Positions 16,132-20,711 of a DNA stretch of 40,978 bases are shown here, piece by piece. The position numbers were made by a program, and so were the translations under genes. Numbering within the stretch: the first letter of the stretch is position 1; each line of letters begins with the position of its first letter. The stretch is from a virus, in the IMG/VR virus record IMGVR_UViG_3300036760_000086, positions 1 to 40,978 of that record, one strand, 5' to 3'. The notes below the pieces were generated by a model that did no database searches, was not told the DNA's origin, and saw only the letters and a list, made by a program, of their open reading frames with translations.

Positions 16132-16775
16132 AGATACTTAACCTCTATGCAGGCATAGGGGGAAACCGTAAGTTGTGGGGCAGTGAGCACCAAATAACGG
16201 CGGTTGAGTACAAGCCTGCTATTGCCGCAATTTATAAAGACCACTTCCCCAACGACACGGTGATAGTGGGGGACGCGCACCAATACTTACTTGAGCATTA
16301 CGGTGAGTTTGACTTTATTTGGAGTAGCCCACCGTGCCCAACGCACACCACCATAAACAAGGCGAACGTTATATCGCCCTACAAAGACAACACTAAGCAA
16401 ATTGCCAATGGGGGTGCTATAAAGCCACGCTACCCAGACATGGCGTTGTACCAAGAAATCATATTCCTAACCCACTTCTTTAAGGGGAAGTTCTGCGTAG
16501 AGAACGTAAAAGCCTACTACGAGCCTTTAATACCACCAGTAGAAATTGGAGGCCACTGGTTTTGGGTTAACTTCATGGTGTCTAGTTTGCCCAGTGGGGG
16601 CAGGGCACATGACGCACCAATAGAGGCGCAACAAGAAAGAAAAGGGTTTGACCTAACAAAATACAAAGGAGTTGATAAGCGGTTGTTGTTGCGTAACTGT
16701 GTGGAACCAGAGGTTGGGCGGCATATACTAAAGTATGTCGAAAATCCTATTATCACCCAAAGAGGAATGTTTTAA
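16128..16775 (+). CDS. Short C5-cytosine DNA methyltransferase-like protein
   Basis: The ATG at 16128 (ATGA overlap) gives a 215-residue product. Motif I is LNLYAGIGG (4-12), motif IV is SSPPC with catalytic Cys70, and motif VI is CVENV (123-127); RNCVEPEVGRHIL (189-201) resembles motif X. The target-recognition region between motifs VIII and IX is very short and the QxRxR motif VIII is not obvious, so the protein is smaller than typical Dcm-type enzymes. It may be a minimal enzyme or one needing a partner such as the 147-residue neighbour. Confidence 0.78.
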   Translation: MKILNLYAGIGGNRKLWGSEHQITAVEYKPAIAAIYKDHFPNDTVIVGDAHQYLLEHYGEFDFIWSSPPCPTHTTINKANVISPYKDNTKQIANGGAIKPRYPDMALYQEIIFLTHFFKGKFCVENVKAYYEPLIPPVEIGGHWFWVNFMVSSLPSGGRAHDAPIEAQQERKGFDLTKYKGVDKRLLLRNCVEPEVGRHILKYVENPIITQRGMF

Positions 16776-17224
16776 TGAAACGAGCACCATTTAAGCGACG
16801 CAAAAAAGGGGAGATAACTAAGTTAAAAGAGGAGCTATGGGGACTGTGCCGCCAAATAAGTGCACGCACCCAACCACACCAGTGCTATACGTGTGGCACC
16901 AGTCTACGGTGGGGCAGTAGCGTCATGCAGTTGGGGCACTTTATAGCACGCTCCTTTGCTTCCCAAGAGCTAGTATTTGACCTTAAAAACCTACGCTGGC
17001 AGTGCCGCATTTGTAACCAGTTTAGGAACGGTGAGTGGCCCACCTTTGAAGCAAATCTTATACGCGACCATGGACAAGCCTATGTTGACGAGCTAAAGGA
17101 GCGCAACCGCATTACGAGGGGAACCACATACCCAAAAGACTGGTATCTGGCTAAAATCGCAGAATACACTGCGTTACTATCCACACTTCAAGGTGGACAA
17201 ACAGGGGAAAACCCCCATACTTAG
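16775..17224 (+). CDS. ninG: NinG/Rap-like recombination nuclease
   Basis: The 149-residue sequence follows the lambda NinG pattern: basic N-terminus, CYTCG (38-42 region), MQLGHFIARS, then DLKNLRWQCRICN with the second zinc pair and an Asn, and FRNGEWPTFEANLI. Lambda NinG (Rap) is a structure-specific endonuclease that cuts recombination intermediates. Together with RecA and the RecB-like nuclease it completes a phage recombination set. It overlaps the preceding stop by one base. Confidence 0.78.
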   Translation: MKRAPFKRRKKGEITKLKEELWGLCRQISARTQPHQCYTCGTSLRWGSSVMQLGHFIARSFASQELVFDLKNLRWQCRICNQFRNGEWPTFEANLIRDHGQAYVDELKERNRITRGTTYPKDWYLAKIAEYTALLSTLQGGQTGENPHT

Positions 17225-17230
17225 GGAACA

Positions 17231-17527
17231 ATGCCGATTGAATCGTACCTCGCCTCAATGATACTTCCTATTGTTTCTAAACCTGATGTGGTACGGATAA
17301 CCCCAACAACGGATGAAATGGGTGTACTTCTTTCCATTGACGTAGACAAGGATGATATGGGTGTGGTTATAGGCAAAGCTGGTGAAACTGCAAAGGCTAT
17401 ACGCCACATGGTACGTATTGCTGGCGTTAGGCAAAACGCACGTGTTAGCGTTAAAATAAATGAACCTGACGGAGGCCCACCACGTTACAGACGTAGTGAT
17501 GCAAGCGACAGGGATTTAATAATTTAA
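17231..17527 (+). CDS. KH-domain RNA-binding protein, KhpA-like
   Basis: Residues 28-78 form one type II KH domain: GVLLSIDVDKDDMGVVIGK, the GXXG nucleic-acid loop GKAG (48-51), then ETAKAIRHMVRIAGV and a final strand RVSVKI. This is close to bacterial KhpA (YlqC), a small RNA chaperone that affects translation and cell division. Host-type KhpA in phage is unusual; the particular sequence style (DEMGVLL...DDMG..IGK.G.TAKAIR) is one I associate with Patescibacteria genomes. It probably binds phage or host RNA. An acidic/basic tail follows the domain. Confidence 0.82.
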   Translation: MPIESYLASMILPIVSKPDVVRITPTTDEMGVLLSIDVDKDDMGVVIGKAGETAKAIRHMVRIAGVRQNARVSVKINEPDGGPPRYRRSDASDRDLII

Positions 17528-17538
17528 TCTGTGAAAAT

Positions 17539-17769
17539 ATGGATGAACCAGTCAAGACAGAACAGACACCAGACGCTCAAGTAGAGTTTGCTGAAAAGCA
17601 GAAGCTATTCCTTAAGGAATATGGTGAACTTGTCGCAAAGCATAAAATAGATTATGCTACATACCCAGTATGGATACCTGATGGTCAAGGTGGTTTTAAG
17701 TGCATAGTGCAAAATACCCCTATAGACATCACTAACCAACCACGCAAATCACCCTTCGTGGCGTCTTAA
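17539..17769 (+). CDS. Hypothetical protein, 76 aa
   Basis: A soluble sequence with an acidic N-terminal helix (VEFAEKQKLFLKEYGELVAK) and a short beta-rich end. It follows the KH gene by 11 bp and precedes another small gene by 2 bp. No motif is recognisable. Confidence 0.58.
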   Translation: MDEPVKTEQTPDAQVEFAEKQKLFLKEYGELVAKHKIDYATYPVWIPDGQGGFKCIVQNTPIDITNQPRKSPFVAS

Positions 17770-17771
17770 CT

Positions 17772-18011
17772 ATGTGGACAATACTGCGCCGATTGAAAAG
17801 GTTGTGGGAACTAAGTAAAGATTTGACAGTTGGGCCAAATGAATGGCCTACAGATGAAGAGGTTGATAAAGCTATAAACGAAGCCTTAAAAGACGACTCA
17901 CCCAAACCAAAACGACTAGCAACCATTGTAGATGTAGCACCAATAGACCCATTTCCAGCCGAAGAACCCCAAGATGACACTACCGAAAAGAAAACCACCA
18001 ATAACGTTTGA
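17772..18011 (+). CDS. Hypothetical acidic protein, 79 aa
   Basis: A basic amphipathic N-terminus (MWTILRRLKRLWELSK) is followed by an acidic, Pro-rich, probably disordered tail. The N-terminus could attach to membranes or bind RNA. The next gene begins within its 3' end in another frame. Confidence 0.55.
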   Translation: MWTILRRLKRLWELSKDLTVGPNEWPTDEEVDKAINEALKDDSPKPKRLATIVDVAPIDPFPAEEPQDDTTEKKTTNNV

Positions 18012-18120
18012 GCAAGCGCAAGGCTTTAACCGTGCAGAGCGCAGACGTCTGTCAAAGATAAATGGCGTGAAGATACCGGGTACCACCAAACCCTTTATAA
18101 AGTCTAAGAAAACCAAATGA
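17974..18120 (+). CDS. Very basic small protein, 48 aa
   Basis: ATG 17974-17976 to TGA 18118-18120. The product is rich in Lys and Arg (FNRAERRRLSKINGVKIPG, KSKKTK) and lies between an overlapping upstream gene and groES, with which it shares an ATGA. A nucleic-acid-binding role is likely but undefined. Confidence 0.55.
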   Translation: MTLPKRKPPITFEQAQGFNRAERRRLSKINGVKIPGTTKPFIKSKKTK

Positions 18121-18371
18121 TTAAGCCAGTTAATGGACACTTGTTGATAGAACCCCTAAAACATGACGCCTTTATTGCGTCTGAACGTGATACCTACCAA
18201 GAGATTGGTGTAGTAATTGAGGTTGCAGTTGAATTCCCAGAGCAATTTACAGTTAAAAAGGGGGACAAGGTGTATTTCGATAGCTGGCTTGCGGCTAAAT
18301 ACCCTAAAAATGACACTGAGTTTTACTGGCTCGTAAAGTGGGAGGACGTGCGGGCCGTCGAGAAAGTATAG
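18117..18371 (+). CDS. groES: GroES-like co-chaperonin
   Basis: An 84-residue GroES-family protein: MIKPVNGHLLIEPL corresponds to the first barrel strand, residues 14-30 to the GroEL-contacting mobile loop (DAFIASE in place of GIVL), then IGVVIEV, KKGDKVYFD and a C-terminal strand VKWEDVRAVEKV. It is shorter than E. coli GroES (97), mainly in the roof loop. It would cap the phage GroEL made from 19116. The last codons are duplicated downstream: DVRAVEK recurs at the end of the inserted nuclease gene, so the present 3' end appears to have been supplied by the insertion. It starts in an ATGA overlap. Confidence 0.82.
   Translation: MIKPVNGHLLIEPLKHDAFIASERDTYQEIGVVIEVAVEFPEQFTVKKGDKVYFDSWLAAKYPKNDTEFYWLVKWEDVRAVEKV
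18345..18365 (+). repeat. Recoded groES tail, copy 1 (DVRAVEK)
   Basis: These seven codons are the last part of the present groES. They encode the same residues as 18773-18793, but six of the seven codons differ, always only at the third base (GAC/GAT, GTG/GTA, CGG/CGC, GCC/GCT, GTC/GTT, GAG/GAA). The two copies flank the nuclease gene. Confidence 0.85.
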
Positions 18372-18373
18372 CT

Positions 18374-18802
18374 ATGGTGATGAAAGGACAAAAAAGAAAT
18401 ACCCCGTGGATGTTTGGAGATAAAAATCCTGCTAAACGAAAAGAGGTGAGAGAGAAGATAAAGAAAAAGGCAACAGGCAGAGTATTTACAAAAACGGCAC
18501 GGAGCAACGTAGCAAGGGGACATTGGAAGGGAGGTAGAGCTGAAACAGAAAGGCGCATTGAAATAAAAAAAGCAGGAAGGGTGAGGCCAGATAAATGCGA
18601 AATATGTCTTGCGCCAACATCAAGCCTAAAGAAGAGATTACATTTTGACCATGACCACCAGTCAGGAAAGTTTAGAGGGTGGATTTGCGAATCATGTAAC
18701 TTTGCTTTAGGGCACGCAAAGGATAACGTAGAAGTACTAGCCAAAATGATTATTTACTTAAATAACAACAAAGATGTACGCGCTGTTGAAAAAACTGGCT
18801 AA
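18374..18802 (+). CDS. Endonuclease VII/HNH homing-type nuclease inserted behind groES
   Basis: A 142-residue protein. Residues 10-37 (WMFGDKNPAKRKEVREKI) look like a NUMOD3 DNA-binding element, common in homing nucleases. Residues 75-130 are a recombination-endonuclease-VII-type HNH domain: CEIC, HFDHDH (90-95), RGWICESCN (101-109), LG and a terminal helix. The last nine residues, DVRAVEKTG, do not belong to the nuclease; they reproduce the GroES C-terminus and look like the displaced original groES end, now read in frame. The gene starts 2 bp after the groES stop. It is almost certainly a mobile, free-standing homing gene that targets the groES 3' end. Confidence 0.83.
   Translation: MVMKGQKRNTPWMFGDKNPAKRKEVREKIKKKATGRVFTKTARSNVARGHWKGGRAETERRIEIKKAGRVRPDKCEICLAPTSSLKKRLHFDHDHQSGKFRGWICESCNFALGHAKDNVEVLAKMIIYLNNNKDVRAVEKTG
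18773..18793 (+). repeat. Displaced original groES tail, copy 2
   Basis: This copy continues with ACT GGC TAA (Thr-Gly-stop) and overlaps the TTG start of the next small gene at 18786, which is how an intact groES would have joined its neighbour. It is therefore the likely ancestral end, pushed downstream by the nuclease insertion. Confidence 0.75.
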
Positions 18803-18911
18803 TCTCTTTCGACGCACTAGCGCATGTTGTGGTGCTGCGAGAGAATTTGTCTTTGGTTGGGACTATAGGCGAGATGATGTCGTGTGCACTAACTGTGGAC
18901 AACTATGCTAA
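18786..18911 (+). CDS. Zinc mini-protein with TTG start, 41 aa
   Basis: From TTG 18786-18788 the frame encodes a Lys/Arg-rich start and two Cys pairs (SACCGAA and CTNCGQLC), ending at TAA 18909-18911. The start lies inside the displaced groES tail, and the next gene begins at its last codons (ATGCTAA), giving the overlapping style of this operon. The non-ATG start lowers confidence. Confidence 0.45.
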   Translation: MKKLANLFRRTSACCGAAREFVFGWDYRRDDVVCTNCGQLC

Positions 18912-19129
18912 GTAGGCGATATCAGAACAGTGAGTGCAAGAACAATTACCTACATGACTTTAGATTCATTAGCCAGACACCCAAGGGATTCGTAGAACGG
19001 TGTACAAGGTGTGGAAAACAGATTTTATTCCCAGCAGACATACCCAATCACGTGTACCTCAGTTACCACATCCGCAGTGCATTACAAGCAAATGACCCAT
19101 TATTTAAGAGAGAATATGCGAAACGATAA
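18905..19129 (+). CDS. Small CxxC protein, 74 aa
   Basis: A basic protein with one strong pair CTRCGKQ and a further Cys near the start (SECKNN), plus His residues that could complete a zinc site. It overlaps groEL by 14 bases in a different frame. Function unknown. Confidence 0.55.
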   Translation: MLSRRYQNSECKNNYLHDFRFISQTPKGFVERCTRCGKQILFPADIPNHVYLSYHIRSALQANDPLFKREYAKR

Positions 19130-20711
19130 TTTACACACAGAGAACGTTCGTGAGAAGCTATTAGCTGGTATCAAAAAAGTATCCAACGCAGTTGGTGGCA
19201 CTATGGGCACAGGGGGTAGCAACGCCATTATTGAGGCTATAGAAAGCCCCGGACACTTAATGACCAATGACGGTTACAGCATTGCCAATAGCATTATGCT
19301 GTCTGACCCTATCGAGGAGATGGGCCGCAAGATACTTTTGGAGAGTATAAACAGAGCCAACAAAGCCTCAGGTGATGGCTCAAGCACTACCGCAGTACTT
19401 ACAGCGGCCATTATTGAGGAGGGCATGTTGCACTTGAAAGAGACTAACCCAATGGATATAAAGCGCAGTTTGGAGGCGTGTATACCAACCATTGAAGCTA
19501 GTATCGTAGAGCAAAAGGTTGACATTGGCGTTGAGGAGGTAGATAAGGTAGCTACTATAAGCTCCGAAGACCCAGACATTGGTAGGTTGATAGGCGATAT
19601 CTATAAAGAAATTGGCAAAGATGGCATTATCTATTGGGATATAAGCAAGACGGTTAAGGACACCTACACCATTGGCACTGGCATTACAGTTGAGGGTGCA
19701 GGCTACATTAGCCCTTATATGTGTGACGCCACCGAGGCAGGGCAGAACACTAACCAAGTACGTATAAAGAACGCAAGCATTTTAATTGTTAAGCAAAAGA
19801 TAACCAGTGCGGCAGACTTCAACGCTATTGGTGCAAGCCTGTTTGCCAAGGATGTTAAAGACCTTGTGGTCTTTTGTGAGGAGTATGACCCCCTTATAGT
19901 GCCTGACCTTGTGAAAACGCGCATGGTGCGTGGTTTTAGGTTCATCTTGGTGAAGATGCCAATCATCTGGAGAGACCATTGGTACGCTGATTTAGCCCTT
20001 GCTAGTGGTGCTAAGGTTATTGACCCATCCGTAGGCATACCACTTAAAGACCTAAACGAAAGCCACTTAGGCAAGGTAGGCAACATAGTGATAACCAAAG
20101 ACGACACCTTTGTTGACGGCATTGCTGACGTAAGTGCACACATTATGGCCTTAGAGGCAGATGGTGACGAAAATAGCCTTATACGTGCGGCACGTCTAAA
20201 GACAAAGACTGCACGTTACTTCGTAGGAGCCCAGAGCGACAGTGCACTAAGCTACCGCCGGCTTAAGGTTGAGGACGCTATAAGCGCAAGTTGGCAAGCA
20301 CTGCATGGCGGTATTGTGGCTGGTGGGGGAGTGGCGTTGTGCAATTCGTCTAGAAAACTCCCAGATACTACAGGAGGAAAGATACTTCTAAACGCCTTAA
20401 AAGCTCCTGCAAAACAAATATGCACTAATGCTGGGGTACTAGTAAGTGAGGGGATAATACCCCTAGTGGAAGTGCAAGAGGTTGGGGCAAAGATGCTTTA
20501 TCCTATAAGGGATAATCTTGGCTTTGACACCAGAACCAAAAAGGGTGTAGATATGTTTGACGCAGGCATTGTAGACCCAGCCAACGTAGTGCTCAACGCA
20601 GTAAAGAACGCAATAAGCGTTGCGGCTACAGTATTAACAGCCCAGACAGTAGTAACTCTTCCACGCGAAGAAGTTTCGCAGGGAAACTCCTATGCGCCCA
20701 ACATCAGGTAA
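19116..20711 (+). CDS. groEL: GroEL-like group I chaperonin
   Basis: A 531-residue chaperonin subunit. The ATP site GDGSSTT (86-92) matches GroEL GDGTTT, with the Asp kept; VEDA and VAGGGVAL (~402-407) match the second equatorial region, and AGIVDPANVVLNAVKNAISV matches the C-terminal equatorial helix. GAGYISPY corresponds to GYLSPYF in the apical region. Differences from E. coli GroEL are TMGTGGSN for TLGPKGRN, an altered APGFGDRR segment (MPIIWRDHWYAD) and no GGM-repeat tail. The ATG at 19116 follows AAGAGAGA. It should assemble with the phage GroES to fold phage proteins; independent of, or mixed with, host subunits is unknown. Confidence 0.9.
   Translation: MRNDNLHTENVREKLLAGIKKVSNAVGGTMGTGGSNAIIEAIESPGHLMTNDGYSIANSIMLSDPIEEMGRKILLESINRANKASGDGSSTTAVLTAAIIEEGMLHLKETNPMDIKRSLEACIPTIEASIVEQKVDIGVEEVDKVATISSEDPDIGRLIGDIYKEIGKDGIIYWDISKTVKDTYTIGTGITVEGAGYISPYMCDATEAGQNTNQVRIKNASILIVKQKITSAADFNAIGASLFAKDVKDLVVFCEEYDPLIVPDLVKTRMVRGFRFILVKMPIIWRDHWYADLALASGAKVIDPSVGIPLKDLNESHLGKVGNIVITKDDTFVDGIADVSAHIMALEADGDENSLIRAARLKTKTARYFVGAQSDSALSYRRLKVEDAISASWQALHGGIVAGGGVALCNSSRKLPDTTGGKILLNALKAPAKQICTNAGVLVSEGIIPLVEVQEVGAKMLYPIRDNLGFDTRTKKGVDMFDAGIVDPANVVLNAVKNAISVAATVLTAQTVVTLPREEVSQGNSYAPNIR

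Follow-up and report, generated by a model that had tools for sequence, protein, structure and literature searches.

A free-standing Endo VII-type nuclease gene that probably invaded the end of a phage groES together with a substitute gene end

The arrangement of genes at the 3' end of groES in the window (the whole stretch of DNA that was analysed, a virus record of 40,978 bases) suggests, with a probability of about 0.8, that a free-standing homing nuclease gene invaded the last groES codons together with a substitute groES 3' end. The insertion, the presence of two tails and the identity of the native one are supported by sequence comparison; that groES is cut, that the break is repaired from one side and that the carrier is thereby protected from its own enzyme is what we infer from the arrangement. 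On the + strand the gene order is groES, the nuclease gene, a zinc-ribbon-like ORF, a small gene named here after its RRYQNS motif, and groEL, with the following features.

18117..18371, + strand: groES (co-chaperonin GroES/Cpn10), 84 aa, ending in the replacement tail (Pfam Cpn10 E=1.7e-5; PHROG 3188 E=6.6e-6; groEL downstream)
18345..18371, + strand: replacement groES tail, DVRAVEK-V-stop (direct reading)
18374..18802, + strand: free-standing Endo VII-type (DHHRN) nuclease gene, 142 aa (Pfam Endonuclease_7 E=1.8e-19; PHROG endonuclease VII E=7e-20)
18578..18766, + strand: Endo VII catalytic domain, nuclease residues 69-131 (Pfam)
18773..18802, + strand: putative native groES tail remnant, DVRAVEK-TG-stop, read as the nuclease C-terminus (exceeds the C-terminus of the nearest family members; arrangement as in L037/L117)
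18774..18911, + strand: zinc-ribbon-like ORF, 45 aa, overlapping the remnant (weak Pfam match, below cut-off)
18904..18915, + strand: TATGCTAAGTAG, apparent vestige of an older groES end (aligns with the last residues of groES in relatives, TATGCTGAGTAA, YAE-stop)
18905..19129, + strand: small conserved RRYQNS... gene, adjoining or overlapping the groES end in all relatives (comparison of relatives)
19119..20711, + strand: groEL (PHROG 5725 E=1.3e-82)

Elsewhere in the window, an ORF at 16775-17224 resembles by eye a NinG/Rap-type recombination protein.

The two gene ends encode seven identical residues in different codons. Copy 1, the groES tail (18345-18371), reads GAC GTG CGG GCC GTC GAG AAA GTA TAG, and copy 2, the nuclease tail (18773-18802), reads GAT GTA CGC GCT GTT GAA AAA ACT GGC TAA, so that six of the seven shared codons differ, by their third positions alone; in copy 1 the third position is G or C in six of the seven. 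A preliminary description of this DNA had reported these synonymous third-base changes, the ends DVRAVEKV and DVRAVEKTG and a gap of two bases between the genes, and direct reading agrees with it on each point. The nuclease ATG at 18374 lies two bases past the groES stop, and the gene is probably translationally coupled to groES. Since copy 1 completes groES, it is the functional tail. Copy 2 does overlap the start of the next gene, as had also been claimed, but the start proposed there, TTG at 18786, gives way to an ATG at 18774 in the same frame, which probably begins the gene after the nuclease and would place copy 2 almost entirely within that reading frame.

A profile of the nuclease family matches Hpy99I (1.9e-13) and T4 Endo VII (0.0018). 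The DHHRN residues, as defined for this family (PMC6083498), are present as D92, H93, H95, R101 and N109 and are invariant in the family alignment, as are the four cysteines of two CxxC pairs (C75/C78/C105/C108), and the protein thus carries the complete DHHRN motif. Its closest relatives end at YLxxN or within a few residues of it (YLKNSRNP, YLLKNRG, YLKKNET), and because they stop before the position of DVRAVEKTG this peptide is an addition to the nuclease and not a family motif, just as the preliminary description had supposed for copy 2. Remoter family members have longer tails, some of them with a common QLxLxGI motif, and among the matches listed DVRAVEKTG occurs in no other member. A C-terminal motif common to unrelated nucleases, which had been named as an observation that would count against the insertion, was therefore not seen.

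Comparison with other groES genes proved informative about the state of the site before insertion. Two IMG/VR searches gave 27 groES matches, about 14 distinct loci at no more than 68% identity, while groES searches of isolated phages and of bacterial and archaeal genomes gave no match. At all of the approximately 14 loci groES leads directly into the RRYQNS gene, with neither the nuclease nor the zinc ribbon between them, and the claim that a nuclease gene was inserted at the groES 3' end is thereby upheld. The groES tails of the relatives read DVRAVEYAE, NIRAVEYAE, DVRGVDYAEVSE and similar, and the window keeps TATGCTAAGTAG immediately 5' of the RRYQNS gene, matching TATGCTGAGTAA of the relatives. 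The preliminary expectation that groES lacking the nuclease should end in DVRAVEKTG is formally contradicted by these tails, but their DVRAVE core is conserved and the KTG can be traced to the zinc-ribbon insertion. The zinc-ribbon ORF is absent from all groES relatives and is accordingly regarded as a separate insertion; a search of 18 relative records, run without a positive control, did not find it either.

The simplest history to be drawn from these alignments would involve two insertions in the last groES codons, the zinc-ribbon ORF coming first and changing the gene end to DVRAVEKTG, and the nuclease coming second. The zinc-ribbon ORF occupies the place of the last groES codons of the relatives and overlaps TATGCTAAGTAG with its own end; it may be a scar left by a mobile element that came before. 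A near relative with the zinc-ribbon insertion alone was not found, nor was an empty copy of this exact groES site among near relatives in IMG/VR, and a pattern search showed DVRAVEKTG to be encoded nowhere else in that database. For this reason the designation of copy 2 as the native remnant draws on the C-terminus of the nuclease family and on a sister element for which empty alleles exist.

This sister element, an insertion in a different gene by a nuclease of the same family, was found in a scan of 80 nuclease loci for terminal peptides common to both sides of the nuclease, and its empty alleles by a search with the end of the upstream gene. L037, L038/L116 and L040/L115 have IASIKSINGLQ at the end of the upstream gene and NNGIKSINGLA at that of the nuclease; L037 and L116 are occupied alleles of the site, and L117 and L118 are alleles of it without a nuclease. 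Occupied and empty alleles agree codon for codon through seven codons of the upstream gene ending GGA TTA GCG. The occupied tail then reads ATT GCA AGT ATT AAA TCA ATT AAC GGT CTT CAA TAG, and the empty tail, at the same position, ATA GCG AGT ATT AAG AGT ATC AAT GGA TTA GAA TAA. The native codons are found instead at the end of the nuclease gene (GIKSINGLA-stop, AAA AGT ATC AAT GGA TTA GCA TAA), after which native downstream DNA follows. Eight of 10 shared codons are changed in the replacement tract, as against one of 13 in the native flanks (Fisher p = 7e-4). Because the flanks match the empty allele and the tract does not, the tail on the nuclease side is the native one, and the replacement arrived with the insertion. 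The tail peptide is itself a repeat within its gene; the empty alleles nonetheless fix the order of events. They bear out directly the general logic of the preliminary description, in which a substitute tail is supplied and the native one left on the side of the nuclease. The native remnants of L116 and L037 are one base apart (ATT AAA in L116, ATC AAA in L037), and the L116 base is that of the empty allele.

Presence and absence at a conserved site, as expected of a homing gene, are thus seen in both systems, the site being empty in all groES relatives and both occupied and empty in the sister alleles. The arrangement that marks a gene-end-replacing ORF, with a substitute end joined to the nuclease and the native end beyond, is complete in the sister element, and at groES both ends are present. 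The nuclease may act as a homing endonuclease, with putative cleavage of the uninserted allele, mobility and self-protection. The Endo VII-type enzyme would cut an uninterrupted groES immediately 5' of the DVRAVEK codons, and repair would copy the nuclease gene and the groES tail that precedes it from a diverged carrier, by way of homology on the left side. The right end of the nuclease gene would then be joined at the break, and the tail of the recipient would survive downstream, in frame as the C-terminus of the nuclease. GroES would remain whole without splicing. The carrier should escape self-cutting, since the native target is split, its left half now bordering a different tail and its right half the nuclease gene; the loss of the uninterrupted site, which the preliminary description had stressed, would still follow from this arrangement. 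One-sided homing would account for the survival of the native end, for its abrupt beginning and for its lying in or out of frame with the nuclease.

Further cases came from a second scan, which covered 80 of the 326 IMG/VR relatives of the nuclease. Two of them are 3' cases in a small cysteine-containing protein with a DDxIPF-type tail: in L130 DDEWIPF stands on both sides of the nuclease, and in L135 NEHTDVPF and EEHSDVPF flank it. In isolated phages and IMG/VR, homologues without the insertion end EDDNDIPF, DDDIPF or DEIPF directly before the next gene. In L130 and L135 the remnants follow the nuclease's own stop, so the fusion of remnant to nuclease in the window is incidental.

About eight of the 138 nuclease loci covered in all are putative 5' cases and mirror images of the above, in which a truncated gene start is followed by the nuclease and then by a complete gene with a different start. 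They lie in a gene with the motif LPxSxFAxPxxRKYP (L055/57/58, L078, L095, L166, L167, L171 and, antisense, L073) and in a KVMHEF gene (L079, L082), where the remnants are short. Here the copies diverge in amino acid sequence as well as in codons. L077 and L084 resemble them, with remnants too diverged to count. In L010/L073 (IMGVR_UViG_3300050821_006251; about 2200-2730 of L073) the antisense nuclease lies in the start of the LPxSxFAxPxxRKYP gene, between MAKLKSSTRNALAD and VAKPKASTRNALAN. Both genes are small and conserved, and both have been entered repeatedly near their start by Endo VII-type nucleases, as recurrent homing targets.

The codon differences between the two ends invite a further suggestion, made in part by the preliminary description, that the groES tail was recoded under selection for resistance to cleavage and is nature's equivalent of the engineered 'rescue' copy whose target resists cutting. 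At groES the changes leave the amino acids intact, the sister element behaves likewise and includes changes as large as AGT to TCA and TTA to CTT, and the four 3' cases mostly exceed expectation (6/7 vs 4.5, 6/7 vs 3.8, 4/6 vs 2.5, 3/7 vs 3.4). Against this, two tails drawn independently from the codon usage of this phage would show six or more differences in seven codons at the window locus with P = 0.20, 73 of 116 shared codons differ over the pooled cases where independent codon choice predicts 68.9 +/- 5.0, and the amino acids differ in the 5' cases. Replacement ends are therefore no more different than those of long-diverged or unrelated homologues, and a tail from a diverged relative suffices to explain them without selection. 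Special recoding of the tail was thus not confirmed and seems unlikely; most simply, the replacement tail would derive from the groES, or in the other cases the corresponding gene, of a diverged phage that had harboured the element earlier.

Less probable again is that insertion duplicated the target site in tandem, over 21-30 bp, and that the groES copy then drifted synonymously whereas overlap with the next gene's start held the downstream copy unchanged. The overlap with the ORF beginning at ATG 18774 would indeed conserve copy 2. In the sister element, however, the tract is saturated with changes between near-identical flanks (8/10 vs 1/13), which means that the tract was already different when it was inserted, and drift after duplication does not fit the amino acid differences between copies in the 5' cases.

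In favour of a chance C-terminal match in an ordinary nuclease gene lying downstream of groES, the repeat is short, at seven residues, and control ORFs do show tail matches of this strength. In a test of tails alone, shared terminal peptides flanking the nuclease scored at least 32, the level of the window case, in 6 of 138 nuclease loci (4.3%) and in 5 of 746 control ORFs (0.7%), an enrichment that is only moderate because the six include one element twice and a match, L158, that looks spurious; the L158 match was discarded, as it does not lie between recognisable genes. Few loci of this nuclease family show a duplicated 3' tail. Coincidence is nevertheless very improbable at groES, where the match is terminal on both sides, the nuclease is the sole member with this tail and the relatives have no gene at the site, and several independent cases occur within one nuclease family.

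Homing nucleases are typically housed in introns and inteins, and the remnant stands where a 3' exon would be, but the notion that DVRAVEKTG is the 3' exon or extein of such an element can be set aside almost completely: groES has a complete tail and stop of its own before the nuclease, neither protein needs splicing, the nuclease ORF starts two bases past that stop and so leaves no room for a 5' intron part, an Rfam search of 17500-19500 gave no match of any kind at E<=1, and so no intron RNA, and a Pfam scan found no protein-splicing domain.

Insertion together with a substitute gene end, the reading preferred here, has its nearest counterpart in the mobile ORFs of fungal mitochondria, found in atp6 of Allomyces macrogynus and in atp6, atp9, cox2 and nad3 of Glomus sp. 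(PMC3630166). These bring a foreign and largely synonymously different C-terminus in frame, by inserted stretches of 51 to 238 bases (table in PMC3630166), the native C-terminus lies downstream and the hybrid gene is expressed (PMC3630166). As at groES, a homing-type nuclease gene follows the substitute end and the native end lies downstream. The fungal ORFs encode LAGLIDADG or GIY-YIG enzymes in mitochondria, and the ends that they replace are much longer, whereas the phage enzyme is of Endo VII type, about eight codons are replaced and mirror-image 5' versions occur. The phage element thus appears to work like the fungal ORFs without being one of them, because the nuclease family differs.

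Among phage nucleases the closest is F-CphI of cyanophage S-PM2, a biochemically proven free-standing DHHRN (Endo VII) homing endonuclease that adjoins its target psbA (PMC6083498). The two share the Endo VII catalytic motif and the position of a free-standing phage gene beside its presumed target. F-CphI, however, owes its self-protection to a group I intron within its target ('collaborative homing'), whereas that of the groES element, which has no intron, would apparently stem from the replaced gene end. The free-standing T4-type Seg and Mob enzymes (PMC2988022) are likewise products of selfish genes that neighbour conserved phage genes and in many cases overlap the upstream gene or are coupled to it, but they are HNH or GIY-YIG enzymes (PMC2988022). 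The searched text of that review makes no mention of duplicated native gene ends (0 occurrences of 'duplicat'). No description of gene-end replacement in phages was found in the open-access literature searched, and a precedent may exist elsewhere.

These findings suggest that exchange of a gene end allows a nuclease gene to settle within the coding part of a conserved gene with no need of an intron or intein, a principle already documented in fungal mitochondria. The signature of a diverged end, a nuclease and a native end would allow homing sites to be read from metagenomes, and would predict the cut site of each nuclease to within a few bases. More tentatively, Endo VII-type homing elements might be widespread in phages as a class that brings along, or picks up during homing, a cut-resistant substitute 3' or 5' end of a conserved gene, a natural 'home and rescue' drive in which resistance is under selection, although we consider this doubtful in its full extent. 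The arrangement has a parallel in engineered gene drives with a recoded-rescue design, and its recurrence around related nucleases in other phage genes points to an apparent route by which such elements may enter conserved genes without killing their carrier.
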